Source of the DNA: Porphyrobacter sp. CACIAM 03H1
Lineage (GTDB): Bacteria > Pseudomonadota > Alphaproteobacteria > Sphingomonadales > Sphingomonadaceae
Length of the DNA: 64,000 bases
Reading direction: 5' to 3'
Assembly: GCF_002215495.1 (NCBI RefSeq)
Contig: NZ_CP021378.1
Coordinates: 2,604,764-2,668,763 of the forward strand
The translations under genes were made by a program, and so were the position numbers. The notes beneath the pieces are model-generated. The model saw only the letters and a list, made by a program, of their open reading frames with translations. It ran no database searches and had not been told where the DNA came from. Positions 44,106 to 61,878 of this stretch are shown here, piece after piece. The stretch's first letter is position 1. The number at the start of each line of letters is the position of its first letter.

Positions 44106-44681
44106 GTGCCCGACGGCCGGCACGAGCGCAGCCGATCCAGCAGGGCGCGGATCGTGGCGGCGATGCTCGAACTTGTCGCCAGAGGCGAGTTTGCGCCGGG
44201 CGCGGCGCAGGTGGCCGAAGCCGCGGGCGTGGGCCTGCGATCGGTGTTCCGCCATTTCAAGGACATGGACGCGCTCTATCGCGAGATGACCGAGGCAATC
44301 GAGATCGAGGTCCTGCCGATGCTGCTCCGCCCGCCCGAGGGGGCGACGTGGCAGCAGCGCCTGTTCGACCTCGCCACGCGCCGGGCGCGAATCTTCGAGA
44401 CGATCATGCCCTACCGGGTCTCGGCCGATCTGAGGCGGTTCGAATCGCCCTATCTGATGGAGGACCATCGCCGCCTGCTCAGGCTCGAGCGCGAGGCGCT
44501 GGAGGCCCACCTGCCGGAGGCCGTGCGCGCCGATGCGGCAGGGGCGCAGGCGCTCGACATTATTCTCGGCTTCGGCACCTGGCGGGCGCTGCGTCAGGAC
44601 AAGGGCCTCGGCGCGCAGGACGCGGCAGCGGTGGTGCGGCGGCTGCTGGCGGATGCCGTCGCGCGGTGGCCCGACGCATGA
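44106..44681 (+). CDS. TetR-family regulator upstream of the FGE/sulfatase genes
   Basis: 191 aa with a GTG start at 44106. The helix-turn-helix (AAQVAEAAGVGLRSVFRHFKDMDALYREM) follows a basic N-terminus. The C-terminal domain is helical. Its TGA overlaps the ATG of the formylglycine-generating enzyme (ATGA), so regulator and enzyme are translationally coupled. It may repress the sulfatase/dehalogenase operon. The frame is open a little upstream; the exact start is uncertain. Confidence 0.82.
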   Translation: MPDGRHERSRSSRARIVAAMLELVARGEFAPGAAQVAEAAGVGLRSVFRHFKDMDALYREMTEAIEIEVLPMLLRPPEGATWQQRLFDLATRRARIFETIMPYRVSADLRRFESPYLMEDHRRLLRLEREALEAHLPEAVRADAAGAQALDIILGFGTWRALRQDKGLGAQDAAAVVRRLLADAVARWPDA

Positions 44682-45607
44682 TCGGGCGCGGTGCCCTTGC
44701 CGCCTTGGCTGCATCCGGCCTGACGCTCGCCGCCTGTGGCGACACGGACGCGCCTGCCACTGCGGCGAAGGCCTGCACCGGCATGGTCGAGGATGGCATG
44801 GTGTGGGTGCCGCCCGGCTCCTTCGTGATGGGGGAAGACCCCCGCTATCCCGAGGAAGGGCCGCCCCGCACCGTGGCGGTCGAAGGCTTCTGGATCGACG
44901 TCCACGAGGTCACCAACGCGCAGTTCGCGGCCTTCGTCGCAGCGACCGGCTATATCACGATGGCGGAGCGCGCACCGCCCCCGCTCACAGGCGCGCCTCC
45001 CGAGATGCTCCAGCCGGGCTCGGCGGTGTTCCGGTTGCCGACACCCGATGATCCGGCGTGGTGGCGCTGGGCGCCGGGCGCACAGTGGCGCCGCCCCGAA
45101 GGCGGGACGGCAGGCATCGCCGGGCAGGACCGCCACCCCGTCGTCCAGATCGCCTACGAGGACGCCGAGGCTTATGCCCGCTGGGCGGGCAAGCGGCTGC
45201 CCGACGAGGTCCAGTGGGAATATGCCGCAAGGGCAGGCGCGCCCGCCCTGCCCGAGCCGGTCGACGGCGAAGGCACGCCTCAGGCGAATTACTATCAGGG
45301 CGTGTTTCCCGCCCGCGACCTTGGAAGCGACGGCTTCACCGGGCGGGCACCGGTGGGGTGCTTTGCGCCCAACGCCTTCGGGCTGCACGACATGATCGGC
45401 AATGTCTGGGAGTGGACAAGTTCGTCCGGCGACCGGGCCGATGCGGGCGAGCCGGTGGGCGTCATCAAGGGCGGTTCGTTCCTGTGCGCCGCCAATTACT
45501 GCGCCCGTTACCGCCCCGCCGCGCGCCAGTTCCAGGAGCGCGGTCTCGGCACGGATCACATCGGGTTCCGGCTGATCGACACTGCGCGGCCCGCTCCGGG
45601 GGATTGA
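44678..45607 (+). CDS. Formylglycine-generating enzyme, predicted lipoprotein
   Basis: 309 aa. The signal peptide MIGRGALAALAASGLTLAAC ends in a lipobox with Cys20. The rest is the FGE-sulfatase fold: GMVWVPPGSFVMGEDPRYPEEGP, FWIDVHEVTNAQFAAFV, KRLPDEVQWEYAARAG, and the active-site copper cysteines Cys270 and Cys275 in GGSFLCAANYCARYRPAAR. Presence of both cysteines indicates the oxygen-dependent type that converts Cys to formylglycine in CxPSR sulfatases. The sulfatase at 46990 has that motif. Export of the enzyme is unusual in bacteria. Confidence 0.9.
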   Translation: MIGRGALAALAASGLTLAACGDTDAPATAAKACTGMVEDGMVWVPPGSFVMGEDPRYPEEGPPRTVAVEGFWIDVHEVTNAQFAAFVAATGYITMAERAPPPLTGAPPEMLQPGSAVFRLPTPDDPAWWRWAPGAQWRRPEGGTAGIAGQDRHPVVQIAYEDAEAYARWAGKRLPDEVQWEYAARAGAPALPEPVDGEGTPQANYYQGVFPARDLGSDGFTGRAPVGCFAPNAFGLHDMIGNVWEWTSSSGDRADAGEPVGVIKGGSFLCAANYCARYRPAARQFQERGLGTDHIGFRLIDTARPAPGD

Positions 45608-45668
45608 CCTTAAGCCGGGATAATGACATTTAGGGTGCCAATTTCATGAGCGATGGGGGAGAGCCGTC

Positions 45669-46577
45669 ATGAAAGTTCTGCGCACGCCGGATGCCGCCTT
45701 CGCCGGGATAGCTGACTTCCCCTTCGCGCCGCATTATTGCGAGATCCGCGACCCCGCGAGCGGAACGCCCTTGCGGGTCCACTACATCGACGAAGGCCCG
45801 CGCGAAGCGCCCGTGGTGCTGATGATGCACGGCGAGCCGACCTGGTCCTATCTCTACCGCCACATGATCGGGCCCGTGGCCGAGGCCGGCTTCCGAGTTG
45901 TGGCGCCCGATCTTGTCGGATTCGGCAAGTCGGACAAGCCAGCGGCCAAGAGCGACTACAGCTATGCCGCCCATGTCGCGTGGATGCGGCAATGGCTCGA
46001 GGCGCTCGATCTCGCGCGCATCACCCTCGCTTGCCAGGACTGGGGATCGCTCGTCGGACTGCGGCTGGTGGCGGCAATGCCCGAACGGTTCTCGGGCGTG
46101 GTGCTGTCCAACGGCGGCCTGCCCGAAGGCGGCCCCGCCCCCCGCGCCTTCGCGATCTGGCGCGCCTTCTCCAAGTGGAGCCCGCTGTTCCCGATCGGCA
46201 GGATCGTCAACAAGGGGACCAAGCGCGGCCTCTCCCCGCAAGAGATCGCCGCCTATGACGCGCCCTTCCCCGATGCCCGCTACAAGGCGGGAGCGCGGAT
46301 CTTCCCGAGCTTCGTTCCCTTTGAAGGCAACCGCGCGGTGCCCGACCAGAAGGCGGCGTGGGAGGTGCTCGACCGCTGGGACAAACCCTTCCTTTGCGCC
46401 TTCTCCGACGGCGATCCGATCACCCGCACCGGCGAGACACGCTTCATCGGCCGCGTCCCCGGCACCGCAGGGCAGAAGCACCGCACGTTGAAGGGCGGGC
46501 ATTTCATCCAGGAGGACGACCCGCAGGGCTTCGTCGCCGCCATTCTCGAGGTCGCACGCCAGGGAGCGCCGCAATGA
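45669..46577 (+). CDS. Haloalkane dehalogenase
   Basis: 302 aa alpha/beta-hydrolase. The nucleophile Asp124 with adjacent halide-binding Trp125 sits in ACQDWGSLVGLR, the oxyanion loop is MHGEPTWSYLYR, the acid Asp247/249 is in AFSDGDPI and the base His278 in GGHFIQED. The acid after strand 7 fits subfamily I (DhlA-like). It would hydrolyse haloalkanes to alcohols, halide and proton in the cytoplasm. Its stop overlaps the DUF1330 start (ATGA). The natural substrate is unknown. Confidence 0.88.
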   Translation: MKVLRTPDAAFAGIADFPFAPHYCEIRDPASGTPLRVHYIDEGPREAPVVLMMHGEPTWSYLYRHMIGPVAEAGFRVVAPDLVGFGKSDKPAAKSDYSYAAHVAWMRQWLEALDLARITLACQDWGSLVGLRLVAAMPERFSGVVLSNGGLPEGGPAPRAFAIWRAFSKWSPLFPIGRIVNKGTKRGLSPQEIAAYDAPFPDARYKAGARIFPSFVPFEGNRAVPDQKAAWEVLDRWDKPFLCAFSDGDPITRTGETRFIGRVPGTAGQKHRTLKGGHFIQEDDPQGFVAAILEVARQGAPQ

Positions 46578-46993
46578 ACGTCACCAACGCCCTCCACCCC
46601 GCGCCCGAACAGGCGATGGCCTTCTTCGCCGCCGACGACGGGCAGCCCATGTGCATGGTCAATCTCCTGAGGTTCAGGGACAAGGCCGCCTATGCCGACG
46701 GTTCCGAGCCGGAGCTCTCAGGGCGCGAGGCCTACATGCGCTATGCCGCAGGCGTGAACGCCTGCCTTGCGGCGGTGGGGGGCAAGGTGCGCTTCAGCGG
46801 CGCCGTGACCGGGCTGCTGCTCGGCGAGGTCGAGGAGCTGTGGGACATGGTGGCGATCGCGGAATACCCCTCGCGCAAGGCGATGATGGCGATGGTGCAA
46901 TCGCCCGAATACCAGGCGATCACCAGGCACCGCGATGCGGGGTTGGCGGGCCAGCTCAACATCTGCACCCGGGCCGGAGCCACGGGCGCGTGA
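46574..46993 (+). CDS. DUF1330-family ferredoxin-like-fold protein
   Basis: 139 aa. The pattern MCMVNLLRFRDKAAYADGS, LSGREAYMRYAAGVNACLAA, DMVAIAEYPSRKAMMAMVQSPE is typical of dimeric alpha/beta-barrel DUF1330 proteins. No catalytic role is established for this family. It overlaps both neighbours by 4 bp (ATGA with dehalogenase, GTGA with sulfatase), so it is translated in a tight operon. Confidence 0.85.
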   Translation: MNVTNALHPAPEQAMAFFAADDGQPMCMVNLLRFRDKAAYADGSEPELSGREAYMRYAAGVNACLAAVGGKVRFSGAVTGLLLGEVEELWDMVAIAEYPSRKAMMAMVQSPEYQAITRHRDAGLAGQLNICTRAGATGA

Positions 46994-48657
46994 GGCGCTG
47001 GGTCAAGGGTGCGCTCGGCACGCTGGCGGCGCTCGCAGTGCTGGGCGCAGCGGGCTATCACTTCCGCACCGATCTGGCGCTCGCCTTCGTGCGCTGGCGC
47101 AGCGCGCAGGACATCGCGGCCACCCGCCCGGTGCCGTGGCAGCAGGGCCCCGCCACCCCCGCCGCGCCCCCGTCCGAGCGGCCGCCCAACATCGTCTTCA
47201 TCCTGTTCGACGATCTCGGGATGAACGACCTGTCGACCTTCGGCGGCGGGATCGCCGGGGGACGGATCAAGACCCCGAACATCGACCGTCTTGCGGCAGA
47301 TGGCGCGATCTTCACCCAGGCCTATGCCGGCAACGCCACCTGCTCGCCTTCGCGCGCGCAGTTGATGACGGGGCGCTATGCCACCCGCACCGGGTTCGAG
47401 TTCACCCCGACGCCCCCCGGCTTTGCCCGCGTCGTATCGATGGTCTCGGCCGATCTCGCCCCCGATCGCCCGCCGGTCGTCTACGATGCCGCAGCCGAGG
47501 CCGCGGCCCCGCCTTTCGAGGAACAGGGCCTGCCGCCCGAGGAAGTGACGCTGGCCGAGGTGCTCAAGACCCGGGGTTACCACACGGTCCACATCGGCAA
47601 GTGGCACCTCGGCAACGCGCCGCGCTTCCACCCCAATGCGCAAGGCTTTGACGAGAGCCTCAACATGGACGGCATGCTGCACCTGCCCGAGGATCATCCG
47701 GACGCGGTCAATGCGCGGCTTGAATTCGATCCCATCGACCACTTCCTGTGGGCCTCGGGCCATTTCGTCACCAGCTACAACGGCGGCGAGAAATTCGCTC
47801 CCGGCGGCTATCTCGCCGATTACTGGACCGACGAGAGCCTGAAGGTGATTGAGGCCAACCGCAACCGGCCCTTCTTCCTCTATCTGGCCCACTGGGGCGT
47901 GCATTCGCCCTTGCAGGCGACGCGCGAGGATTATGACGCTGTCGGCGACATCGCGCCGCACCGGGTCAGGGTCTATGCGGCGATGATGCGTGCGCTCGAC
48001 CGCAGCGTGGGGCGGATCATGGCCAAGCTCGAGGCCGAGGGGCTGGCTGAGAACACGCTTGTGGTGATCTCGTCCGACAACGGCGCGCCGGGTTATGTCG
48101 GGATCGACCGGGTCAACGCGCCGTTCCGCGGCGGCAAGGGGTCCTTCTTCGAAGGCGGCATCCGGGTCCCGCTGTTTGCCCGCTGGCCGGCGCGGATCGC
48201 CCCGGGGACGAAGGTTCCGCTGCCGGTCGGGCAGGTCGACGTCATGCCGACGCTGGCCGCCGTGGCCGGGGCGCCCCTGCCCAAGGGCGTCACGATCGAC
48301 GGGCGCAACCTGCTCCCCGCGCTGACCGGCCAGGGAACACCCGAACGCGCCGATGCGCCGCTGTTCTGGAGCAGCGGCTATTACAAGGCCGTGCGCGCCG
48401 GGAACTGGAAGCTGCAGGTCAACGGCAGGCAGAACAAGGTCTGGCTCTACGACCTCGCCGCCGATCCGACCGAGACCAGGAACCTCGCCGCCGCGCAGCC
48501 GGCCAAGCGCGCCGAACTCGAGAGGCTCCTTGCTGCGCACGAACGCGGCCGCAAGGCGCCGCTCTATGCCAGCACCTTCGAGACTCCCGTCTCGATCGAC
48601 CGGACAATGGCCGAGCCCTTCGACCCGCGCGGCGAGTGGATCTACTGGCCCAACTGA
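46990..48657 (+). CDS. Type I sulfatase, membrane-anchored
   Basis: 555 aa with GTG start at 46990 overlapping the upstream stop. An N-terminal transmembrane anchor (about 6-24) precedes the arylsulfatase core. Metal site Asp-Asp in IVFILFDDLGMND, catalytic Cys118 in ATCSPSRAQLMTGRY (to be converted to formylglycine), and GKWHLG and SSDNGAP motifs are present. It hydrolyses sulfate esters in the periplasm. Its activator FGE is encoded three genes upstream in the same direction. The end overlaps the convergent GH16 gene by 16 bp. Confidence 0.93.
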   Translation: MRRWVKGALGTLAALAVLGAAGYHFRTDLALAFVRWRSAQDIAATRPVPWQQGPATPAAPPSERPPNIVFILFDDLGMNDLSTFGGGIAGGRIKTPNIDRLAADGAIFTQAYAGNATCSPSRAQLMTGRYATRTGFEFTPTPPGFARVVSMVSADLAPDRPPVVYDAAAEAAAPPFEEQGLPPEEVTLAEVLKTRGYHTVHIGKWHLGNAPRFHPNAQGFDESLNMDGMLHLPEDHPDAVNARLEFDPIDHFLWASGHFVTSYNGGEKFAPGGYLADYWTDESLKVIEANRNRPFFLYLAHWGVHSPLQATREDYDAVGDIAPHRVRVYAAMMRALDRSVGRIMAKLEAEGLAENTLVVISSDNGAPGYVGIDRVNAPFRGGKGSFFEGGIRVPLFARWPARIAPGTKVPLPVGQVDVMPTLAAVAGAPLPKGVTIDGRNLLPALTGQGTPERADAPLFWSSGYYKAVRAGNWKLQVNGRQNKVWLYDLAADPTETRNLAAAQPAKRAELERLLAAHERGRKAPLYASTFETPVSIDRTMAEPFDPRGEWIYWPN

Positions 48658-49964
48658 CCGGCCCCGCGCCAGACCGTGAAGGCCCGGATCCGCATCGCGC
48701 CGCTTCCGCCGGTGAACGCGCCTTCGTGCTTCACCGCGACATTCATCAGCGGGAACCAGGTCACGCCGGCGAAGGGGTTGACGGCCTGATAGACCTCGGT
48801 GCCGTCAACGAACCAAGTGATAAAGTCGGGCGCGATGTCGACGGCATAGCGGTGATAGCCGTCTGACATTCCGCTGATCGCGTAGAAGCGCCTCGCATCG
48901 ATCCGGAGGGGCACGGTGAAGCGGCGCTTTCCGTCCGCGCCGCCATGCAGGTTCGCGCTGATGTCGCGCGCGAAGTTCCAGTCGGGCGAATCGCCGAAGC
49001 CTTCATAGACGTCGATCTCCGGCGGCCACCCGCGCGTCGGCAGCAGCCACAGGGCGGGCCAGGCGCCGCGGCGGTCGGGCATCTTCGCCTCCCACTCGTA
49101 CTGGCCGTAAGCGACGTGGGTTGCCGGCATCTTCTCGCCCGTCAGCACCGCCGCCCCGTGTCGCCACATCTCCCCTTCGTGGCGGATCGGACGGTCGAGC
49201 TCTTGACTGCGCAGCACCAGCACGCCCTCTTCCACCGCGATCGGCGCGCGCGGCGCCGCGTGCCGATCGGGATCGAGATAGAGTCCGGTCTCGGCATTGC
49301 CCGGCTGGGTGCGCCCGTGAGGCAGGCGGGTCGAGAACGCCTCCGGTCCGCCCCCGTCGCTCCAGCGCGCACGGGCCGGATTGAGCCGGTAGGCGGGCGT
49401 GCCGGACGCGGCGAAGCGGCGCGGTTCGCGAAAGTCGGCGGTTCGCGCCACCGTCGGCGGCGCGCCCTCCACCGCGCGGATCTGGCCGCGCGGGTCGGCC
49501 ACATGCGCGCCGTCGACGCCCTCGGGGAAATGCAGCTCGAATCGCGCGCCTTCGGGCATGCCGCGCAAGGAGACGCGCACCGTCTGGACGAGCGGATCGC
49601 CGGGACGGAACACCACAACGCCGTCGAGCCGCTCGAAATGCCGGCCCTCGATCGCGCCCCCGGGCAAGCGGCCGTTACGGGTCAGCACCCGCGCGTGGAC
49701 CGTGTTGGGCGTGGGGCGGTCGAGCGTCACGGGAACGTGCACCTCGCGCGCGCCGGGCGCGACGGCGACATCGCCGATGCGCACCCGCGCCCTCGGCGGG
49801 AAGGCCGTGCCGCCGGCAAAGTCGAAATCCGCAAAGGCGCCGTCGGTACGCTGCCCCGGCGGGGGATCGCCGGCGGCATTGGACGAAGTGCCGCTCGCCC
49901 CGCAGGCGACCAGCCAGAGGCCCAGAAGCACCGCCTGCACCTGTCGCCGCACCGCCGCGCCCAT
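48642..49964 (-). CDS. GH16 family glycoside hydrolase lipoprotein
   Basis: 440 aa. The signal peptide ends in a lipobox (LWLVAC). A Calx-beta-like immunoglobulin-type domain (about 55-165) precedes the jelly-roll GH16 catalytic domain, whose motif PPEIDVYEGFG supplies both catalytic glutamates. GH16 enzymes cut beta-glucans and galactans and in exopolysaccharide loci trim polymer length. It is downstream of and adjacent to the nucleotidyltransferase-like gene, on the border between the lasso cluster and the sulfatase operon, so membership in the lasso pathway is doubtful. Confidence 0.83.
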   Translation of the reverse strand: MGAAVRRQVQAVLLGLWLVACGASGTSSNAAGDPPPGQRTDGAFADFDFAGGTAFPPRARVRIGDVAVAPGAREVHVPVTLDRPTPNTVHARVLTRNGRLPGGAIEGRHFERLDGVVVFRPGDPLVQTVRVSLRGMPEGARFELHFPEGVDGAHVADPRGQIRAVEGAPPTVARTADFREPRRFAASGTPAYRLNPARARWSDGGGPEAFSTRLPHGRTQPGNAETGLYLDPDRHAAPRAPIAVEEGVLVLRSQELDRPIRHEGEMWRHGAAVLTGEKMPATHVAYGQYEWEAKMPDRRGAWPALWLLPTRGWPPEIDVYEGFGDSPDWNFARDISANLHGGADGKRRFTVPLRIDARRFYAISGMSDGYHRYAVDIAPDFITWFVDGTEVYQAVNPFAGVTWFPLMNVAVKHEGAFTGGSGAMRIRAFTVWRGAGQLGQ

Positions 49965-51122
49965 CTATCCCTCCACCGGCACGGAGCGCCGAAGAGCCTC
50001 GCTCGCGATCATGCGTGCCGCCTCGCGCGAGAATTCCGCCGCCCGCTGCGCGCCGGGCGAGCCGCTGCACATCGCCCAGAGAATCGCGCGGCGCCTGGGC
50101 CAGAGCGTTGCAGGCGCATGCGGCTCGAACACCATCGCCAGCAGGGCGCTGCGGTGTGCCCATTCGGGCGGCGCGCGGCGCGCAAGAGGCGGGACGAACG
50201 GCAGGCTCACTCCGAAAATCGTCTCGCACAGCGCCACTGCCAGGCCCACCGTGCCGCTCAGCCGCTGGCGGCAGACGAGCTGCGCGAACTGCCGGTGTTC
50301 CTCGGCGCTCATGCCCAGCAACCCTGCCGCCAGGTTGTAGGCATAGCGGGCCGAGGGATGGCGGTGGACCAGTTCCTTGGTGAAGTTGAGCGCGCAGATC
50401 AGCACCGCCTGCGGCCGGTGGGGCACGGCAACCTCCACCTGCCCGACCAGCTCGCGACGGGGATCGCGCAGAAAGGCTCCGATGTCGTGCGGTGGGGGGC
50501 ACCCCGGCTGCTGGAGACGGTGGTGCAGATCGATCACCCCTCCCCCCGCATGATCGAGGTGCACCTCGCCGAGAGGGCCGGTCCACCATGCCGATGTTCC
50601 GGCACGCTGCCGGAAACCCTCGTGCTCGAGCGCCGCCAGCGCAGCCTCGAAGTCGGCTCGCGCAACCAGCAGATCGAGATCGCCCGAACGGCAGAAGAAC
50701 GGATCGCCATGGAGCAGACGATGCTGGAACGGCCCCTTGAAGGCGATGGCGGCGATCCCCGCTCGCGCCAGCACCGGAAAGGCGAGCCGCGCCAGAGCCA
50801 TCACCCGCCCGTTGGCGATCGCCGAACGGGTTCGCGCCGCCTTTGCCGCCTCGGCGACCGGCACGGGCGGCACGAGCCCCGCGCGCTCGAAGCCGCGCAT
50901 ACAGGGCGATGTCATGCGCGCCCGCACTGCCAGAGCAGCAAGACTCGCCGGGCAGGCCGCCTGCCAGCCCGACAGCGCGTGCGCCTCGCCCGTCAGGCTC
51001 GCGCTGCATAACCGGGCTAACGCATCTTGCGCGGTCTCCCACGCCACTGCGGAAGAAGCCGCCCCCTCGTCCGAAATTTTCGCGGCAGAACGGTTTCTAT
51101 CTTGGGTGAGTGCAGCATTCAT
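49965..51122 (-). CDS. Nucleotidyltransferase family protein of the lasso-peptide cluster
   Basis: 385 aa. The nucleotidyltransferase-like core is FKGPFQHRLLHGDPF followed by SGDLDLLVARADFEAAL, with the DLD metal-binding pair; the C-terminal region is helical. This is the uncharacterised NTP_transf_5-type family often found beside lasso peptide and other RiPP clusters. It starts divergently 197 bp from the precursor gene and the GH16 stop/start junction follows directly. A tailoring or immunity role is possible but unproven. Confidence 0.78.
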   Translation of the reverse strand: MNAALTQDRNRSAAKISDEGAASSAVAWETAQDALARLCSASLTGEAHALSGWQAACPASLAALAVRARMTSPCMRGFERAGLVPPVPVAEAAKAARTRSAIANGRVMALARLAFPVLARAGIAAIAFKGPFQHRLLHGDPFFCRSGDLDLLVARADFEAALAALEHEGFRQRAGTSAWWTGPLGEVHLDHAGGGVIDLHHRLQQPGCPPPHDIGAFLRDPRRELVGQVEVAVPHRPQAVLICALNFTKELVHRHPSARYAYNLAAGLLGMSAEEHRQFAQLVCRQRLSGTVGLAVALCETIFGVSLPFVPPLARRAPPEWAHRSALLAMVFEPHAPATLWPRRRAILWAMCSGSPGAQRAAEFSREAARMIASEALRRSVPVEG

Positions 51123-51143: not shown

Positions 51144-51166
51144 CCATCGAAATCCGCGATGGATTT
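51144..51166. promoter_or_regulatory. Overlapping inverted repeats in the lasso divergent promoter
   Basis: CCATCG/CGATGG (7-bp spacer) and AAATCC/GGATTT (5-bp spacer) are nested within 23 bp. The site lies 22 bp upstream of the nucleotidyltransferase gene start and about 150 bp before the precursor. A second pair CCTGCA/TGCAGG at 51268-51287 lies in the precursor 5' region. These are candidate regulator or leader hairpin sites. Confidence 0.4.
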
Positions 51167-51318
51167 ACGATAGGGGTGTGCGAGCCGAATTAAATAACGT
51201 GCTTTATCCTGCCGCCATTCGCGGACTGGCATGAAGTGCTTGAATATTCGCCCACTCCTTTCGCATTCCTGCAGCATCCCATGCAGGGAGTGATCAAAGT
51301 TGCCAAAGGAGGAAGTCA

Positions 51319-51477
51319 ATGAACAATAGAGCCTATAACGCCCCCGAACTTGAAGAACTGGGCACCTTCGAGAAGCTGACCCAGGCCAGCGGTTGCCCGG
51401 ATGCGCTCGATGCGAGCTTCCCGGCCGGAACGCCTTTCGGCGATCTGACCTGCGGGGCCGAGGACGGCCTTTCCTGA
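51319..51477 (+). CDS. Lasso peptide precursor (A gene)
   Basis: 52 aa, ATG 6 bases after AGGAGG. The leader (1-22) has the RRE recognition pattern Tyr6-x2-Pro9-x-Leu11-x3-Gly15 and ends with Thr21 at the conserved penultimate position. The predicted core (23-52) is 30 residues: Ala1, Ser2, Gly3, Cys4, Pro5, Asp6, Ala7, Leu8, Asp9, then a 21-residue tail with Cys23 and a terminal Ser30. Ala1 to Asp9 predicts a nine-residue macrolactam. Ring Cys4 and tail Cys23 could form a disulfide. An alternative Gly25 start would give a seven-residue ring to the same Asp. The leader alignment favours Ala1. Confidence 0.92.
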   Translation: MNNRAYNAPELEELGTFEKLTQASGCPDALDASFPAGTPFGDLTCGAEDGLS

Positions 51478-51608: not shown

Positions 51609-51896
51609 ATGGAGAAAATCGCTCACGACCTGCTTGTCACCAGCGACCCCGAGGTGGTTGACTGCGTGCTGGGCGACGGCTCGGCGCTGCTCAATCTGCG
51701 CACCAACATCTATTACAGCCTCAACGAGGTCGGCACCTATGTCTGGCATGCCATTGGCCAGCCGGTCCCCTTCGGCAACCTCGTGAAGCGGGTGGCGACG
51801 GAATATGCCGCGCCCGCCGATCAGGTCGAGAAGGACCTCGCGCGGCTCGTGGCGAGACTGGACGAGGCCGGGCTGGTGACATGCAGCCACCGCTAA
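51609..51896 (+). CDS. Lasso peptide B1 protein (PqqD-like RRE)
   Basis: 95 aa from the ATG at 51609 (AAAGGA 9 bases upstream). The stand-alone RRE has LVTSDPEVVDCVLGDGSALLNLRTNIYYSLNEVG in overlapping pieces, with the typical YYSLNEVGTYVW strand-helix junction and a helical C-terminus. It binds the leader Tyr-Pro-Leu motif and delivers the precursor to the B2 peptidase and cyclase. It overlaps B2 by 16 bp. Confidence 0.92.
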   Translation: MEKIAHDLLVTSDPEVVDCVLGDGSALLNLRTNIYYSLNEVGTYVWHAIGQPVPFGNLVKRVATEYAAPADQVEKDLARLVARLDEAGLVTCSHR

Positions 51897-52327
51897 CGGA
51901 CCGGCAACCCCGCCCGCCGCGTGCTGCAACGCCCTCCGCGCGCCGCACGCTGAAGCGCGATGTACTTTGCCTCGGGACGCTCGTCGTCATGCGCATTGCG
52001 CTTACGCTGGTGGGTTACGCCGCGATCCGCGCCCGGATGCCGCAGCCGACGCCGACTACCGACAGCCATTTCTATGCCCGTCAGCTCGCCCGGAGCATCG
52101 AGCGCCTCGCCCGCTTCGTCCCGCGCGCCTCCTGCCTGACCCAGGCACTGGCCCTGCAATGGCTGCTCGCGCGCGCGGGCCATGCGAGCGAGCTGTTCGT
52201 CGGCGTGCGGCAGGACGCGGCCGGTCGGTTCGCTGCCCATGCTTGGGTCAGCTGCAACCAACGCATCGTGCTCGGGGCGTCGACGACGCCGCTGTCTGAG
52301 TTCACGGTGCTCGCGGAGCGGCGCTGA
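51881..52327 (+). CDS. Lasso peptide B2 leader peptidase (transglutaminase-like)
   Basis: 148 aa. Catalytic Cys85 is in PRASCLTQALALQWLL and His120 in AAHAWVSC. The third member of the triad is not obvious after the His. Residues 1-30 are basic and may be an extension; a later in-frame Met (residue 37) could be the true start. It removes the leader after Thr-Gln so that the core N-terminus can attack Asp9. The stop overlaps the cyclase start (TGATG). Confidence 0.9.
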   Translation: MQPPLTDRQPRPPRAATPSARRTLKRDVLCLGTLVVMRIALTLVGYAAIRARMPQPTPTTDSHFYARQLARSIERLARFVPRASCLTQALALQWLLARAGHASELFVGVRQDAAGRFAAHAWVSCNQRIVLGASTTPLSEFTVLAERR

Positions 52328-54180
52328 TGCCGCTTCCCGAAATCGCCGGGATCCTCGCCGGCGATGCGCACCGGCGCGATGCAGCACCAGGTCCGGGCCG
52401 CTGGAGTGCCCCCGGCATCATGCTGGCGGGCGGCTCCGGCCCGGTCATGCTCGACAGCGACTGCGTGGTCGTCGCCGATGCGCGGATCGACAACCGCCCC
52501 GCGCTGTGCCGCGAGCTCGGCCTGCCCGCCGATGCACCTGAGGCGGCGGTGATCGCGTGGGCCTATCGGCGTTGGGGCGAGGATTGTCCTGCCCGCATCG
52601 AGGGCAGCTTCGCCTTCGCCCTGTGGGATGCGGGTCGCCGCCGCCTCCTGTGCGCCCGCGACCTGATGGGCGTGCGCCCCCTGTGCTATCGCGTGGAGGG
52701 CACGACCTTGCGCTTCGCCCAGAGCCCGGCGGCGCTGGCGGACGGCGCCGACGGGTCGCGCTGCGTGCGCGAGGAAGCTGTCGCCGATTTCCTTTACGGC
52801 CGCGTGCTTGATGCCGAAGGGACCTGGTTCGCCGGCGTCCGCCGACTGCCGGCAGGTCACGCTCTCGTCCACGAGCGCGGCACGATGCGACTGCGCCAGT
52901 ATCGCAGCATCACGGCCACACCGCATACACCCGGGAGCGATCCGGCCACAACCTTGCGCGGACTGCTCGATTCCGCCGTTGCCCGCCGCGCACGCGATGG
53001 CGAGAACGTCGGCGTCCTGCTGAGCGGAGGGCTCGATTCCTCCGCGATCGCCTGCCTGCTGCGCGACCGCCGCAAGCGCGCCGGAGCGGCGCCGCTGCCG
53101 ATCTTCTCGATGATGTTCCGCGAACCTCGACGCAGCAACGAGCGCCATCATCTGGATGCGGTGCTGGCCACCGGGGGCTTCGCGCCCCATGTCCTTGATC
53201 TCGACGGCTATGCGCCGCTCGCCGGGTTCGAAAGCCTGCTCGATGCGACCGGCGGCCCCGCCCTCTCGCCCAACCTCGCCTGCATGCGCGCTGTCGTTGC
53301 CACCGCAGCGGACCAGGGTATCACGGTGCTGCTCGACGGGCATGGCGGCGACGAGGTGGTGAGCCACGGCTACGGCCTCCTCGACGAACTCGCCGCCCGC
53401 GGCGCCTGGGCTGCTCTGTGGCGCGAGGCGCGCGGGGCGGCGGACAATTACGGCCGCTCGCGGCTGGTGCTGACACGCCGCGTCGCCGCCCGCCAGACGC
53501 GCATCGACGCGAGGTTCATCGCGCGGGCGCTGGCCCCCTTCGACCGCGAGGCGGCGCCGGCTGCCGAGCGCCCCCCCGCCCATCTCCTCTCGCGCGACCT
53601 GCTGGCGCAAAGCGCCCTTGCCGAACGGCTCCGCGCTCTTGCCCGGCCCGAAATGGCGGGGGGTGAGCAGGCGCAACATCATGCAGTGCTGGCCGATCCG
53701 CTGCAAGCGTACGCCTTCGAGGTCCACGCCGCCTTCTATCGCAGCATGGGCGTGACCGCGCGCTATCCCTTCTGGGACCGAGAGGTGGTCGAATTCTGCC
53801 TCGGTCTGCCGGCGCACGAAAAGCTTTCGCAAGGCTGGTCGCGGCTGGTGTTGCGCCGGGCGATGGCAGGCATCGTTCCCGACAGCGTCCTCCGGCGGCG
53901 CGACAAGATCGACTTCTCGGTCCATCTCGCGCGCGGCCTGGTACGCCATCACCATGCGCAGATCAGCGAGCTTCTCGCCTCAGCCGCAAGCCCGCTCGCC
54001 CCCTATGTCGATCTAGCGCGGGCGCAGCGCACCTATGCGGCGATCGCCGCCGATCCCGACGCGGCGTCGGGCCGCGCGGTGCAGATGGTCTGGCGCGCGG
54101 TCGCGCTGGGAATCTGGCTCGAGACCGGCTGCGGCGCCAAGGCCGCGGGCGCGTCGCAGCCCCGCGAGGCGGCGGCATGA
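52327..54180 (+). CDS. Lasso cyclase (asparagine-synthetase-like macrolactam synthetase)
   Basis: 617 aa. The N-terminal glutaminase-like domain (about 1-200) lacks the nucleophilic Cys at position 2, as in lasso cyclases. The synthetase domain has the PPi loop SGGLDSSA at 233-240 and GHGGDEVVSHGYG further on. It adenylates the side-chain carboxylate of core Asp9 and closes the ring while the tail is threaded. Kinase start overlaps its end (ATGA). Confidence 0.94.
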   Translation: MPLPEIAGILAGDAHRRDAAPGPGRWSAPGIMLAGGSGPVMLDSDCVVVADARIDNRPALCRELGLPADAPEAAVIAWAYRRWGEDCPARIEGSFAFALWDAGRRRLLCARDLMGVRPLCYRVEGTTLRFAQSPAALADGADGSRCVREEAVADFLYGRVLDAEGTWFAGVRRLPAGHALVHERGTMRLRQYRSITATPHTPGSDPATTLRGLLDSAVARRARDGENVGVLLSGGLDSSAIACLLRDRRKRAGAAPLPIFSMMFREPRRSNERHHLDAVLATGGFAPHVLDLDGYAPLAGFESLLDATGGPALSPNLACMRAVVATAADQGITVLLDGHGGDEVVSHGYGLLDELAARGAWAALWREARGAADNYGRSRLVLTRRVAARQTRIDARFIARALAPFDREAAPAAERPPAHLLSRDLLAQSALAERLRALARPEMAGGEQAQHHAVLADPLQAYAFEVHAAFYRSMGVTARYPFWDREVVEFCLGLPAHEKLSQGWSRLVLRRAMAGIVPDSVLRRRDKIDFSVHLARGLVRHHHAQISELLASAASPLAPYVDLARAQRTYAAIAADPDAASGRAVQMVWRAVALGIWLETGCGAKAAGASQPREAAA

Positions 54181-55106
54181 ACGAGCACAGCTACCGCGCC
54201 TTCGGCCTCACCATCGCCAGCGATCTCGAACTGCCCGAACTGACGCCCGCACCGCCCGGCCCCGCCGATGCGGCGATCCGTCTGGTCGATACCGGGCGCG
54301 GATTCCCGGCACCCGAGACACCCGGCACCTTCCGTTTCGGCGACAGCGATTGCTTCCTGCTCTATCCCCAGATCGGCGCTTTCCGCGTGGCCGCATCGGG
54401 CCTGATCGAGGTCGAACCGCGCCCCGGGGTAGATCCGGCGCTGATCGGCTTTCCGCTACTCGGCCCGGTCATGGCCCTGCTGCTGCAGATGCGCGGCGCC
54501 TTCCTGCTCCACGGCAGCGCGCTCGTCGGGCCTGGCAAGGAGGCCTTTGCCTTCCTCGGCGACAAGGGCGCGGGCAAATCGACGACGGCGGCGGCCTTCC
54601 TGCGTGCGGGCTACCCGCTGCTCACCGACGACATCATCGCGATCACGGGACTGGACCACGGCGCGGGCCGGATCATGCCCGCCTTCCCGCAGGTCAAGCT
54701 CACCCGGGCGGCCTCCGCCGTGTTCGCAGGCGAGGACCTGACCGAGCGTCCCGGGGTGCCGCTGGTGCGCGAGAAACAGCGCTATCTCGTCGGCTCCGGA
54801 CTTGCTAGCGAGCAGCACGCGCCCGGGCATTTCTTTCTGCTGCGCCGGGGCGAGGCGCTGGCGATCCGCGATCTCGATCCAAAGGAGCGGATGAAGGCCT
54901 TCCTGCGCTTTTCCTACGGCACGCGCTTCGGTCCGGAGTCGATCACCCCCGCAATCGCAGTGCGCCACGCCCGCGCCTGCGCCGCACTGGCGCATCGCGC
55001 CCGCGCCGCGATCCTGACCGTGCCGCACGATCTGGATGCGCTGGGCGAGGTAGTGGCATTCGTCGAGTCTGAACTGGCGGCCGAGCCTCCGGCATGCAGC
55101 GCATGA
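54177..55106 (+). CDS. HPr-kinase-like lasso peptide kinase
   Basis: 309 aa. Residues 1-100 form a beta-rich N-terminal part, then the kinase core with Walker A GDKGAGKST at 128-136 and the catalytic Asp pair in LLTDDIIAI (151-152). These proteins are related to HPr kinase. In the paeninodin pathway the homologue phosphorylates the C-terminal Ser of the precursor. The precursor here ends in Ser, so the same modification is inferred. It overlaps the ABC gene by 13 bp. Confidence 0.9.
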   Translation: MNEHSYRAFGLTIASDLELPELTPAPPGPADAAIRLVDTGRGFPAPETPGTFRFGDSDCFLLYPQIGAFRVAASGLIEVEPRPGVDPALIGFPLLGPVMALLLQMRGAFLLHGSALVGPGKEAFAFLGDKGAGKSTTAAAFLRAGYPLLTDDIIAITGLDHGAGRIMPAFPQVKLTRAASAVFAGEDLTERPGVPLVREKQRYLVGSGLASEQHAPGHFFLLRRGEALAIRDLDPKERMKAFLRFSYGTRFGPESITPAIAVRHARACAALAHRARAAILTVPHDLDALGEVVAFVESELAAEPPACSA

Positions 55107-56926
55107 CCGCGTTTGCCCGCTCCGGCACCACGGCAAGCCTTGCGCGCTTTGTGCGCTATCTCGCCGCATCGGGCGGCCCGCGGTTCACCGTCGCGCTGGC
55201 ACTGCTCGTGCTGGGCGGGCTGACCGAGGGCGTCTCGATCCTGCTGGTGATCCCGCTGCTCTCCCTCGCAGGCGAGGACACGCCTTCCGCCATGCGGCTG
55301 CCGGATTGGGTGCCGGGCGAGGTGAGCATCGGGCTCGGCACGGCACTTGCGGGTCTGGTCGCGCTGATCGCGCTGCACGGCGTGTTCACGCGGGCGAAGA
55401 ATATCTACCTTGCGGATCTTCTGTTCGACCTGCTCAACCGGCTGCGGCTCGATCTTTTCGCCGCCATCGGCTCGCTGCGCTGGGACGAGCTGGTGCGCCG
55501 GCGTCCGTCCGATCTCCACCACCTCCTCACCGCCGATGTCGAGCGGGTCTATGGCGCGGCGATGGCGGTGATGGTCCTGCTCCAGACCGCGATCCTGCTC
55601 GCCATCTACCTCGTGGTCGCCTGGATCATCTCGCCGCTGCTGATGGTCGCCGCCGGCGCGCTCGGTTTGCTGATGCTCGCCCTGCTCGCCCCGCTGCGCC
55701 GCCGCGCGACCCGTTTCGGACGGGAGCGGACCACCAACAAGCGCGACCAGTACCGTACCGTCGCGGAATATCTCGGCGGGCTCAAGACGGCGCGGATCCA
55801 TGGTGCCGAACCGGCCTACCGTGCGCGTCTCGCCGCCAATCTGGACAAGGTCCATGCCGAAGCCGTGGGCTATATGCGCCTGACCTCGCTGGGCACGATC
55901 CTGTCGCAACTGGTCAGCGCGCTTGCCGTGGCCGTGCTGGTCTATGCCGGGGTCGCGCTGATCGGCATGGCGCTGCCCGAGTTGGTCGCCTTCCTGCTGC
56001 TGCTCATGCGCATCGCCCCGCGCTTCACCGCCTTGCAGACGAACCTCCAGCAATTGCTGGCCGAGGTGACGGTCTTCGGCGACATCGAGCGCTTCCGCGA
56101 GGAATGCGCCGCTGCCGCAGAGCCGCCCTTGCCGGCCTCGCCGGAGGCTCCGCCGGTCCTGCGCGATGCGATCCGCTGCAAGGGCGTGCGCTACGCTTAT
56201 GCCGGGGGTGACGGGCGACCGGCAATCGAGGATCTCGATCTCGTCATTCCTGCCGGCCGCATCACAGCGCTGGTAGGCCCTTCGGGGAGCGGGAAGAGCA
56301 CCACCGCCGATCTGGTCTGCGGCCTGCTGATCCCGCAGCACGGTTCGATCACCATCGACGGCCACGCGCTCACCCCTGCCACCGCGCAGGCGTGGCGGCG
56401 GGCGATCGCCTATGTGCCGCAGGACCATTTCCTGCTCGCCGGAAGCGTTGCCGAGAACCTGCGGCTCGCCCGCGGCGATGCGAGCGATGCCGACCTGTGG
56501 GCGGCACTCGAAGGGGCGGGTGCCGCCGACTTCGTGCGGGCCTTGCCGCAAGGGCTCGCCGCGATACTGGGCGAGAACGGCAGCGGCCTGTCCGGAGGCC
56601 AGCGACAGCGAATTGCGCTGGCCCGGGCGCTGGTGATGGCGCCGCAGCTGCTCGTGCTCGACGAGGCCACCAGTGCGCTCGACTGGGAGAGCCAGGCCGC
56701 CTTCGCACACTCGGTTGCGGCGCTGCGCGGACGCGTGACCGTGCTGGTGATCGCGCACCGCCTCTCGATGGTGGCGGCGGCCGACCATGTCGTTGCGCTC
56801 AATCGCGGACGGGTGGTCGAAGTGGGCGGCTTTGCCGACCTTGCGGGCGGCCAAGGCCCTGTCGCGCGGCTGGTCGCGGCCGAGCGGAGCGATACACGGC
56901 CGCCGGCGAGCGGTCCGGCGGGCTGA
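55094..56926 (+). CDS. Lasso peptide ABC exporter (D gene)
   Basis: 610 aa half-transporter. Six transmembrane helices lie in about 25-310. The ATPase domain has Walker A GPSGSGKST, signature LSGGQRQRIALARAL, Walker B LLVLDEATSALD and the H-loop IAHRLS. It likely exports the mature lasso peptide and gives immunity. No lasso isopeptidase or dedicated TonB receptor is nearby, consistent with an export-type cluster. It starts inside the kinase gene, translationally coupled. Confidence 0.93.
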   Translation: MQRMTAFARSGTTASLARFVRYLAASGGPRFTVALALLVLGGLTEGVSILLVIPLLSLAGEDTPSAMRLPDWVPGEVSIGLGTALAGLVALIALHGVFTRAKNIYLADLLFDLLNRLRLDLFAAIGSLRWDELVRRRPSDLHHLLTADVERVYGAAMAVMVLLQTAILLAIYLVVAWIISPLLMVAAGALGLLMLALLAPLRRRATRFGRERTTNKRDQYRTVAEYLGGLKTARIHGAEPAYRARLAANLDKVHAEAVGYMRLTSLGTILSQLVSALAVAVLVYAGVALIGMALPELVAFLLLLMRIAPRFTALQTNLQQLLAEVTVFGDIERFREECAAAAEPPLPASPEAPPVLRDAIRCKGVRYAYAGGDGRPAIEDLDLVIPAGRITALVGPSGSGKSTTADLVCGLLIPQHGSITIDGHALTPATAQAWRRAIAYVPQDHFLLAGSVAENLRLARGDASDADLWAALEGAGAADFVRALPQGLAAILGENGSGLSGGQRQRIALARALVMAPQLLVLDEATSALDWESQAAFAHSVAALRGRVTVLVIAHRLSMVAAADHVVALNRGRVVEVGGFADLAGGQGPVARLVAAERSDTRPPASGPAG

Positions 56927-56993: not shown

Positions 56994-58253
56994 ATGCGCC
57001 ACGCCGTCACCGTCACGGGCCTTGCCGGCCTTGTCACTCTGCTGTCTGCGGGCACGGCCGCGCGCGCGCAGGTCGCACCCCCGCCCCGCCCCGCGGAACG
57101 CCAGTCCGACGAGTTCGAACCGGTCGGCGGCCGGATCGGCAGCTTCTTCCTGTTCCCGAGCCTCGAGACCCGGATCGAATATGACGACAATATCCTCGCC
57201 TTGCCGAGCGAAGGGGAAGGCGATGTCGAGCTCACCGTGCGCGGCGGCGTCGCGATCGAGTCCCGCTGGCAGCGCCACAGTCTCGAGGCCGATGCCTATG
57301 TCCAGCAGAACTTCCACGGGCGCTTCACGACCGAGGACGTGATGGAAGGCGGGGCGCGGCTGCGCGGGCGGCTCGACATCAGCCGCGATACTTCCGCACG
57401 GCTGATCGCGTCGCTGGATTCGCTCGCCGAGGACCGCGCCAACATCACCAGCGCCGGCCAGGCGAGGCGTCCCACGCGCTTCCGCCGCGCCGATGCGCTC
57501 TTTGCGCTGGCGCAGGATTTCGGGCGCGTGCAGGTGGTCGGCGATGCGCAGATGGTGGTGCTCGATTTCGACGATGCGACCCGCGCCGACGGCACCGTGC
57601 TCAACCAGGATTTCCGCGATTCGACCTATCTGCGGGCCTCGCTCACCACGCTGGTCGAGGTATCGCCGCGGGTCTCGGGCCTGCTGCGCGGGCAGGTCGA
57701 CCGCCTGACCTATTCCGGCAACCCGGACACTCCCGACCCCTTCGATCGCGACACGACCGGTTATGCGATCGAGGCAGGTATGAAGCTCGAGCTGAGCAAC
57801 CTCCTGTTCGGCGAGGTTCGCGCAGGGGTGCTGCACCGCCAAGTGGACGATCCGAGCGCCGACGGCCTGACCGGCGCCTCTTTCGGCGCCAACCTCACCT
57901 GGGCCGCCACACCGCTCACCACGCTGCGGCTTTTCGCCGACCGTCAGGTCGAGGAAGGCGGCTCACAGCTGGTCAGCGGAAACGTGCGCAGCCAGGCCCG
58001 GGTCGAGGTGGAGCACGAATTGCTGCGCAACCTCGTGCTCGAGGGCCGCGCCGGGTTCGCCCGGATCGAGACCATAGGACAGGTCGAGACAAGTGCCGAC
58101 GAATACAACCTGATGGTGGGCGCCACCTGGAAGCTCGATCGCAACTTCCGCGTCTTCGCGCGCGCCGACCGGTTCCAGCGTTTCGCCGACGATGCCTTCT
58201 TCCGCGAATTCACGCGCAACCGCGTGACCGCAGGCGTCAGGCTGGTATTCTGA
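56994..58253 (+). CDS. Outer-membrane beta-barrel of the exopolysaccharide locus
   Basis: 419 aa from the ATG at 56994 (GGAGGG 7 bases upstream). A signal peptide (to ARAQ) precedes an all-beta barrel with alternating amphipathic strands: SLETRIEYDDNILALPS, VSPRVSGLLRGQVDRLTY and a C-terminus ending in Phe (VTAGVRLVF), the OMP assembly signal. The family is found next to exopolysaccharide export genes (VpsM/BBP2 type) and may form the outer-membrane exit. It is convergent with the Wzc-like gene, 6 bp apart. Confidence 0.85.
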   Translation: MRHAVTVTGLAGLVTLLSAGTAARAQVAPPPRPAERQSDEFEPVGGRIGSFFLFPSLETRIEYDDNILALPSEGEGDVELTVRGGVAIESRWQRHSLEADAYVQQNFHGRFTTEDVMEGGARLRGRLDISRDTSARLIASLDSLAEDRANITSAGQARRPTRFRRADALFALAQDFGRVQVVGDAQMVVLDFDDATRADGTVLNQDFRDSTYLRASLTTLVEVSPRVSGLLRGQVDRLTYSGNPDTPDPFDRDTTGYAIEAGMKLELSNLLFGEVRAGVLHRQVDDPSADGLTGASFGANLTWAATPLTTLRLFADRQVEEGGSQLVSGNVRSQARVEVEHELLRNLVLEGRAGFARIETIGQVETSADEYNLMVGATWKLDRNFRVFARADRFQRFADDAFFREFTRNRVTAGVRLVF

Positions 58254-60473: not shown

Positions 60474-60768
60474 ACTGCGCGCGTGAGGGTCTGCATTCTC
60501 GTGAGTCAGGCGGTCTGCTCTCGTCGCCAAGGGCGTCTCCCGTGTCCATGGACCGGCACCAGCGCCGACTTTGCCGCGCCGAGGTGCCCGCGCGCGCGGG
60601 CCCACGCCATAACCTGTTTAGGCATCGAAGGATGCGACGCGGCCTGCGGCGTCCTGATCGAGGTCAGCAAAGCACTTGAATTTCCCCCGCCAGCCAGTGG
60701 GCCAGAGAGCGGCCCCGTGGGCGTGCCACTAGGTCGCGCCCCGGAGCAGCGGGGACACGGGTACCACC
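60474..60768. promoter_or_regulatory. Divergent promoter region of the exopolysaccharide locus
   Basis: 295 bp between the divergently transcribed autokinase and glycosyltransferase genes. It probably holds both promoters. No strong palindrome or recognisable -35/-10 pair stands out. Confidence 0.35.
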
Positions 60769-61878
60769 ATGGCCAGCACGATCGCCTATCTCGTCCACGA
60801 TCTCGGCGATGCCGCCGTCGCGCGGCGGGTCGAGGCGTTGCAGGCCGGCGGCGCCGAGGTCACGCTTGCCGGGTTCCATCGGCGCACTGCGCCGGCCGCC
60901 GTCAGCGGCGCACCGGCGCTTGCCCTTGGCCGCAGCCACGACGCACGGCTGGGGCAGCGGGCGCTGCTGGTGCTGCGCACCTTGCTCGTCCCGGGGCGTC
61001 TGCGGTCGATGGTGCGCAGGGCCGATATCGTGATTGCGCGCAATCTCGAGATGCTGGCGATCGCCGCGGCGCTCGCCCGACCGGGGCAGGCGCTCGTCTA
61101 CGAATGCCTCGACATTCACCGCAAGATGGTCAGCGGCGGTGTGGCGGGACGGATCCTGCGCTTCATCGAACGCCGCCTGCTCGACCGCACGGCGAGGGTG
61201 ATCGTCAGTTCCCCCGCATTCGAGCGCGATTACTTCCGCGCGGTGCAGCGCTGGCGCGGGCCGATCGAACTGGTCGAGAACAAGGTCGGCTCCCTGCCCG
61301 AAGCGCCGACCTCCGGGGCCGGCACTGCCGACGGCCCTTGGGTGATCGGCTGGTTCGGAATGCTGCGCTGCCGCCGCAGCCTCGAAATCCTCGCCGCCCT
61401 CGCCGCCCGTTCGGACGGGCGCGTGCGGGTGCTGGTGGCCGGCATCCCCTCGCCCGACATCTTTCCCGATTTCGCGGCCGAGATCGCCCGCGCACCTTTC
61501 GTGGAATATGCCGGCCCCTATCGCCCTTCCGACCTCCCCCGGCTTTACGGGCGGGTCCATTTCGCCTGGTGCATCGACTATTTCGAGGAAGGGCTCAACT
61601 CGCGCTGGCTGCTGCCCAACCGCCTGTACGAAAGCCTTGCCCACGGCGCGGTGCCCGTCGCTCTCGCCGGGGTCGAGACCGGGCGCTGGCTCGCGGTGGC
61701 CGGGGTGGGACTGCGGCTTGCCGAGGGCGAAGCGATCGGGGCGGCACTCGGAGCGCTCACGCCCGAAAGCTACGCCGCCCTCGCCGATGCGGCGCGCACG
61801 GTACCGCCCGGGCGCATCGCCTTTTCCGCCGCCGACCACAGGCACCTCGTTCGCCAGCTGGAGACCCTCGTCCGATGA
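60769..61878 (+). CDS. Glycosyltransferase, GT4-like
   Basis: 369 aa GT-B fold protein. The N-terminal half begins TIAYLVHDLGDAAVARRVEAL; the C-terminal half contains WVIGWFGMLRCRRSLEILAALA and the nucleotide-sugar region LPNRLYESLAHGAVPVALAG with the family's Glu. It transfers a sugar to a lipid-linked oligosaccharide in exopolysaccharide synthesis. Its TGA overlaps the next start (ATGA). The sugar is unknown. Confidence 0.85.
   Translation: MASTIAYLVHDLGDAAVARRVEALQAGGAEVTLAGFHRRTAPAAVSGAPALALGRSHDARLGQRALLVLRTLLVPGRLRSMVRRADIVIARNLEMLAIAAALARPGQALVYECLDIHRKMVSGGVAGRILRFIERRLLDRTARVIVSSPAFERDYFRAVQRWRGPIELVENKVGSLPEAPTSGAGTADGPWVIGWFGMLRCRRSLEILAALAARSDGRVRVLVAGIPSPDIFPDFAAEIARAPFVEYAGPYRPSDLPRLYGRVHFAWCIDYFEEGLNSRWLLPNRLYESLAHGAVPVALAGVETGRWLAVAGVGLRLAEGEAIGAALGALTPESYAALADAARTVPPGRIAFSAADHRHLVRQLETLVR

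Follow-up and report, generated by a model that had tools for sequence, protein, structure and literature searches.

Introduction

Class III lasso peptides, in which a disulfide joins one ring and one tail cysteine, are very few: BI-32169 and 9401-LP1, both from Streptomyces, are those named in reviews. BI-32169 (19 aa; Cys6–Cys19, Asp9; PMC12427821, Table 1) and 9401-LP1 (18 aa; Ala1, Cys5, Asp9, Cys18; PMC5974421, Table 1) both close the ring at Asp9 and end on the tail cysteine, with positions as counted here. Upon DTT treatment, 9401-LP1 gains 2 Da and becomes sensitive to carboxypeptidase (PMC5974421). A 2020 review places most studied class II peptides in Proteobacteria and contrasts them with classes I, III and IV (PMC7549694). 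One proteobacterial exception described in these sources is the class IV peptide pandonodin (Pandoraea), 33 aa long, with a single disulfide between two tail cysteines (PMC13352647, PMC12427821). The mode of lasso disulfide formation is called unknown in a 2026 review (PMC13352647); known disulfide lassos form without an oxidoreductase, and a dedicated enzyme may be unneeded (PMC9266682).

Another group of lasso peptides is tailored at the C-terminus. The paeninodin kinase phosphorylates the terminal Ser, and the nucleotidyltransferase PsmN is linked to hexosylation of the phospho-Ser in pseudomycoidin (PMC9266682, PMC8498205); the kinase of a Bradymonas cluster acts on Ser3 instead (PMC10368454). 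Lasso kinases are known to share a His-Lys-Asp-Asp motif (PMC9266682), and the gene order A-B1-B2-C-K-D is on record for a proteobacterial cluster (PMC5067487).

Here, we analyzed a 64,000-nucleotide stretch of the Porphyrobacter sp. CACIAM 03H1 genome, hereafter the window. It holds an A-B1-B2-C-K-D lasso cluster with a divergent nucleotidyltransferase gene, whose product, as we read the sequence, probably has its tail pinned to the ring by a Cys4–Cys23 disulfide. If true, class III lassos would be placed in Alphaproteobacteria, beside close Cys-free homologues of the same gene order, and two substitutions on one scaffold would then suffice to test what the bridge does to threading, heat stability, phosphorylation and activity. 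The locus is also of interest for two wider questions, the formation of lasso disulfides and the possibility that lasso precursors are encoded apart from their enzymes.

The precursor and the start of its core

Precursor A is encoded by a 52-aa ORF (51319-51477, + strand; translation MNNRAYNAPELEELGTFEKLTQASGCPDALDASFPAGTPFGDLTCGAEDGLS), which scores 27.1 bits against the NCBIfam model lasso_leader_L3 (NF033521; cut-off 19). It is not a chance ORF, since B1, B2, cyclase, kinase and exporter genes follow it and a protein search recovered 33 homologues with 88-100% query coverage at E ≤ 4.8e-16. Residues 1-22 (51319-51384, +) form the leader, with YxxPxL at −17/−14/−12 and Thr at −2. Residues 23-52 (51385-51474, +) form the 30-aa core delimited from the alignments, ASGCPDALDASFPAGTPFGDLTCGAEDGLS, within which we predict a ring from Ala1 to Asp9 (codon 51409-51411) and a disulfide between Cys4 (51394-51396) and Cys23 (51451-51453), the last residue being Ser30; the codons, all on the + strand, are read directly from the sequence.

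Where the core begins is decided by the leader and by the alignment. Tyr6, Pro9, Leu11 and Thr21 fall exactly at −17, −14, −12 and −2 when the core starts at Ala23, and the published work on Bsf gives the same span of −17 to −12 for YxxPxL, with a conserved Thr at −2 that is rarely replaced by Ile or Val (PMC10368454). Column 23 is Ala or Gly in 34/34 aligned rows (precursor A and its homologues), and C26, C45, D31 (Asp9) and S52 are invariant in all of them; two cores of the wider parsed set start with Ser. The ring acceptor Asp stands at position 9 in 129 of the 131 parsed cores and at position 10 in two, given that the parsing pattern itself demands an Asp in the acceptor stretch. A start at Gly25 would instead give a 28-aa core with a 7-residue Gly1–Asp7 ring, Cys2 and Cys21. 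Peptides in the table of PMC12427821 most often begin with Gly, and 7-residue rings exist (PMC13352647), but the YxxPxL and Thr spacing suits Ala23, Gly25 is replaced by Ser in one row (P0033) while column 23 is Ala or Gly, and the Cys-free sister cores described below parse from Gly, Ala or Ser at 23, with Asp9; we find such a start hardly credible. The start at Ala23 thus appears supported by the leader spacing.

An earlier note on this DNA had proposed a 30-residue core (23-52) starting at Ala by leader alignment, with Asp9 as the ring acceptor, Cys4 in the ring and Cys23 in the tail, all of which agrees with the above. It had also called the lasso precursor new. A lasso precursor it is, but one of an existing family, of which four listed members (P0010, P0015, P0023 and P0043) already bear the database name "lasso RiPP family leader peptide-containing protein".

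The lasso cluster and its predicted tailoring

Judging from its gene content, a complete N/A-B1-B2-C-K-D lasso cluster surrounds precursor A. On the + strand follow B1, a PqqD-like leader-binding protein (51609..51896; PF05402) that matches the solved lasso B1 chains 9x90_B (3.2e-6) and 5v1u_A (4.3e-5); B2, the leader peptidase (51881..52327; Transglut_core3, PF13471, NF033537), in which alignments display conserved Cys85 and His120 and an extra, clade-specific Cys125; C, the asparagine-synthetase-like cyclase (52327..54180; PF00733), which matches NF033535 at 4e-132 with a score of 442, below the cut-off of 525; K, an HprK-like tailoring kinase (54177..55106), assigned by alignment and a weak TIGR04352 match (20.2 versus a cut-off of 200) and without a match in the Pfam scan; and D, an ABC exporter (55094..56926; PF00005, PF00664). 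The nucleotidyltransferase N (49965..51122, −; NTP_transf_5, PF14907) diverges from A. Three sequence features of lasso peptides are found here: YxxPxL and Thr(−2) in the leader, a cluster that holds B1, B2 and cyclase together, and an Asp acceptor. Upstream of A, an aligned block (51163..51207, +; ATTTACGATAGGGGTG ... TTAAATAACGTGCTTTAT, also GATAGGGG...ATAACGTGCTTTA) is common to the window and the related loci L001, L002 and L005, and partly to L003 and L007, and was not seen in the alignment at the orphan precursor described below; it is likely a promoter or an operator/regulator site. RNA folding between A and B1 displays nothing unusual (z −1.85).

In the pathway that we propose, B1 would bind the leader, K would phosphorylate the precursor on its terminal Ser, N may attach a hexose, B2 would cleave after Gln22, C would link Ala1 to Asp9 about the threaded tail and D would export the product. 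Cys4 in the ring and Cys23 in the tail, where the Cys-free sisters have Phe23, would form one disulfide, a class III-type lock that would replace, or add to, a bulky tail residue. Since Pfam and NCBIfam scans of cluster proteins revealed no thiol oxidoreductase, this bond probably arises spontaneously or in the periplasm.

The kinase residues H112, K134, D151 and D152 are invariant in 17/17 aligned cluster kinases and fit the published His-Lys-Asp-Asp motif, the residue assignment being our own. Together with a terminal Ser, found in 63/63 cores with paired cysteines, such a kinase suggests a phospho-lasso of the paeninodin type, for which both features are present in the window. Ser30 is the likely phosphorylation site, not a certain one, because the Bradymonas kinase uses Ser3 and the core also contains Ser2 and Ser11. 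In N, D148 and D150 are invariant in the 15 aligned rows (N is also present in L002, L061 and L062, which stand outside this alignment). By description, N seems comparable to PsmN.

Comparison with the known lasso classes

The predicted peptide has one cysteine in the ring, one in the tail and no other in the core, as in class III. Class I, with two disulfides and four cysteines, and class IV, with both cysteines in the tail, were ruled out, as the core has only two cysteines and Cys4 precedes Asp9. The window peptide resembles BI-32169 and 9401-LP1 in its ring closure at Asp9 and in its ring and tail cysteines, and 9401-LP1 also in starting with Ala1. It differs from both in its 30 aa, with seven residues past Cys23, in its Gram-negative kin, and in the kinase and nucleotidyltransferase of its cluster. 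Like pandonodin it is proteobacterial and long, with one disulfide predicted, but one of its cysteines lies in the ring. Paeninodin and the A-B1-B2-C-K-D cluster of S. yanoikuyae share with the window the split B, the HprK-like kinase and the terminal Ser; the S. yanoikuyae cluster is likened by gene order, and paeninodin also has Ala1 and Asp9 (our count; PMC12427821) but, unlike the window, no cysteine. The Bacillus peptide pseudomycoidin also pairs a kinase (PsmK) with a nucleotidyltransferase gene (PsmN) and ends in Ser; it has no cysteine, and product glycosylation is demonstrated for pseudomycoidin only.

We found no proteobacterial class III peptide in the open-licence literature on class III lassos, on disulfide lassos and Alphaproteobacteria since 2018, or on Erythrobacter lassos, which is no proof of absence. 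What we predict from the sequence is a Gram-negative phospho-lasso with a bridge of the class III type. The statement of the earlier note that proteobacterial lassos are usually class II is in line with the 2020 review (PMC7549694). A proteobacterial lasso with a disulfide has precedent, though, pandonodin being a known class IV case (PMC13352647, PMC12427821). Its "unusually long" tail has to be toned down as well: with 30 aa the peptide is long without being exceptional next to pandonodin (33) and achromonodin-1 (30; PMC13352647). Its class III-like ring–tail bridge, a prediction as regards the bond itself, gains weight from the all-or-none occurrence of the cysteines and their at least two placements on the trees, as follows.

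The two cysteines occur together or not at all

Using the best 120 of 296 matches of a precursor-profile search, and pooling the listed proteins with the fetched loci, we parsed 131 unique cores. One ring and one tail cysteine are present in 63 of them, none in 68 and a single one in 0, with cysteines counted from the core start onward (P0036, P0042 and P0091 have further ones in N-terminal run-ons). With one precursor per locus the count is 63/67/0 for 130 cores. A Fisher test on the 63/0/67 table (p = 1e-38) takes no account of relatedness, and we do not treat its value as a probability; as the sequences are related and not independent, the counts overstate the evidence for pairing, and the trees below carry more weight. 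Paired cores have Cys 4/23 with Asp9 in 61/63 cases, and Cys 4/24 with Asp10 in P0085 and P0124. P0038, unparsed and outside the 131, has both cysteines and an odd C-terminal run-on.

The Cys-free family (sphingomonads, Brevundimonas and others) shares with the window homologous sequence, the same machinery, Asp9, F12 and T16; it differs in lacking cysteines and in having Phe at position 23 in 63/68 cores. Thr or Ser occupies position 4 in 38/68. These cores are 24 aa long in 63/68 cases, most without a C-terminal extension. Paired cores measure 28-30 aa in 59/63 cases, and most window-type cores bear a C-terminal extension (GAEDGLS in the window), hence the long peptide; P0062, P0063 and L061 have none. 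From rank ~60 onward, the listed matches are mostly 44-49 aa and Cys-free, with cores like GASTGSALDATFPTGTPFGDLTFS, P0062, P0063 and P0085 still carrying the pair beyond that rank. Cys-free cores of this family are absent from the peptide table of PMC12427821, and a literature search with sequence strings found no paper. In 12/12 loci of other lineages examined, including L061, which has the cysteine pair, the precursor has B1, B2, C, K and D around it, and N is present in 10 of the 12 (absent from L027 and L044).

With Cys in place of Phe23, a covalent lock seems to have supplanted or reinforced a bulky one, the role that we infer for Phe23 in the Cys-free sisters. We infer a ring–tail disulfide on these grounds and regard it as well supported. 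The two cysteines might instead remain free thiols, or serve in metal or haem binding, an intermolecular dimer or redox sensing: their co-conservation is also compatible with a two-thiol metal site or a dimer, and the scanned cluster proteins include no oxidase. However, the tail cysteine takes the place of Phe and accompanies the ring cysteine in separate lineages, which is the pattern of a lock, and 9401-LP1, a characterised ring–tail lasso of like layout, is oxidised (PMC5974421), so that we hold these uses to be unlikely. Still less probable, in our view, is a ring-closed but unthreaded product (branched-cyclic with the disulfide), or a cluster that is silent or yields no stable product: every cluster gene is open and conserved together with the precursor, and core dN is far below dS, at 0.05/0.74 for the window versus L002 and 0/0.58 for the pair of orphan precursors described below.

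The cysteine pair changed at least twice

In a cyclase tree of 19 clusters, the seven rows of the window clade lie on one side of a branch with 91/94 support, which falls below the starred level of the tool, and the paired L061 is the 100/100 sister of the Cys-free L042. The strongly supported (starred) branches alone force at least 2 changes of the pair. In a tree of C, K and D combined, the branch parting the seven from all others reaches 100/100 and L061 is once more grouped with L042; which of L006 and L041 branches first in the window clade is poorly supported (34/55). A single origin of the pair, read from a 17-row tree with one clade (94/94), was dropped, as L061 and L062 force at least 2 changes. 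Within the window clade, the pair is kept while cyclase identity drops to 38-41% (L006, L041). The L061 core, GASCPGNADATFPVGTPSSQFTCFS, has Cys4 and Cys23. The leaders of L061 (MKKRSYERPTLNEIGSFETITKG) and L042 (MKKRNYERPTLNELGSFETVTKG) are almost identical and their cores differ, which indicates that the pair was gained or lost as a unit recently; the L061 core could stem from intragenic recombination instead of fresh mutation.

An extra B2 cysteine five residues past the conserved His (HAWVxC) is present in 8/8 window-clade and 0/10 Cys-free sequences. A role of this Cys125 as a dedicated oxidase needed for the pair was rejected, since L061 is paired yet its B2 reads HAWVLYGGE, and on the further basis of L078 and L088, whose B2 read HSWVQC; we keep Cys125 as a marker of the lineage. 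Cyclase C243 is clade-specific in 7/8 window-clade rows, those covering the position. When the AlphaFold model of B2 (pLDDT 89) was compared with the PDB by Foldseek, no match was obtained at E ≤ 0.001; the best (0.16) was an arylamine N-acyltransferase, and the others included cysteine-protease-like folds.

An orphan precursor with a conserved core

The genome encodes a second precursor of the same Cys type (G000:C1:595403-595561, −; MTRRTYHAPQLQELGTFERLTQGAGCPDALDATFPAGTPIGDLTCGLEDGLS; also recovered as L009 1498-1656, −, and L022 9904-10062, −), which lies ~2.06 Mb from the cluster along the single 3.5-Mb contig. In the 15 kb around it, tblastn with the cluster proteins returned only the orphan itself and a partial ABC ATPase matched at 35%. 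The only Transglut_core3 match in the genome is the B2 of the window, and there is one close cyclase, the next match being 32% identical. With no processing genes nearby, the orphan would have to be matured in trans, if at all. It is syntenic in an Erythrobacteraceae MAG (L004 8001-8159, +; 9.3 kb at 82.7% identity) that also holds a full cluster, L005. The two orphan cores are set apart by 11 nucleotide differences, every one in a synonymous codon (dN 0, dS 0.58), and the amino-acid changes are in the leader; to judge from these rates, the orphan core is under strong purifying selection. Its first core residue is Gly where that of the cluster precursor is Ala, which supports the core start assigned above. 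An orphan precursor with a selected core is a new finding of this analysis.

Taking the trees and the orphan together, we lean towards a broader reading, in which the Phe23 lock was swapped for Cys4–Cys23 at least twice within one Sphingomonadales lasso family, classes II and III thus interconverting by two coupled substitutions, and in which the single cluster would also mature the orphan disulfide-type precursor in trans, one enzyme set giving two disulfide phospho-lassos.

Neighbors of the orphan include an alpha/beta hydrolase, a glyoxalase-like protein, an SDR and a Rieske oxygenase. A third match of the precursor profile in the genome (E 0.098) was taken as chance.

Distribution and genomic surroundings

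Whole-genome searches gave matches in 8/114 genomes of the genus of the window, 3/60 of the genus of G386, 10/298 and 11/397 of the family (two overlapping draws), 8/396 of the order and 1/385 of the class, the last being the genome of the window itself. Both Cys and Cys-free members enter these counts, and the weakest matches (G121, G180, G260) concern the leader only and another precursor family. Named contigs with the Cys type belong to Erythrobacter, Porphyrobacter, Aurantiacibacter, and unclassified Erythrobacteraceae and Sphingomonadales. A cyclase search of plasmids returned 15 records, all below 60% identity and none with 80% coverage.

A gene for a BBP2_2 outer-membrane barrel (56994-58253, +), equipped with a clear RBS, starts 67 bases past the exporter stop, and a homologue follows D in 7/7 window-clade clusters reaching that far; it may be an outer-membrane export partner or part of a polysaccharide locus. 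The lasso cluster is placed as if within such a locus, with a sulfatase, an FGE-sulfatase-domain protein and a GH16 hydrolase on one side (44348-49964) and a Wzz-type gene on the other (58260-60605). GH16 matches occur near seven related lasso loci (L001, L003, L005, L006, L024, L025 and L026). A 1325-aa ORF (58929-62906) taken as a "GT" marker was dropped as evidence because its front part overlaps a Wzz-type gene on the opposite strand.

A sphingomonad lasso cluster with a phenanthrene-use phenotype has a different, benenodin-type precursor (PMC11006600). Three loci of the same genus (L018, L019 and L020) have other lasso-like precursors of the form GSVRNLTGGSG..., accompanied by matches to B1, B2, C, K and D, and represent a separate Cys-free family. 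L043 (G550) encodes two distinct precursors, one of the LTFS type and one with MTQAANPGGSDDMGFARTGGGDGPPDMTFS after a similar leader.
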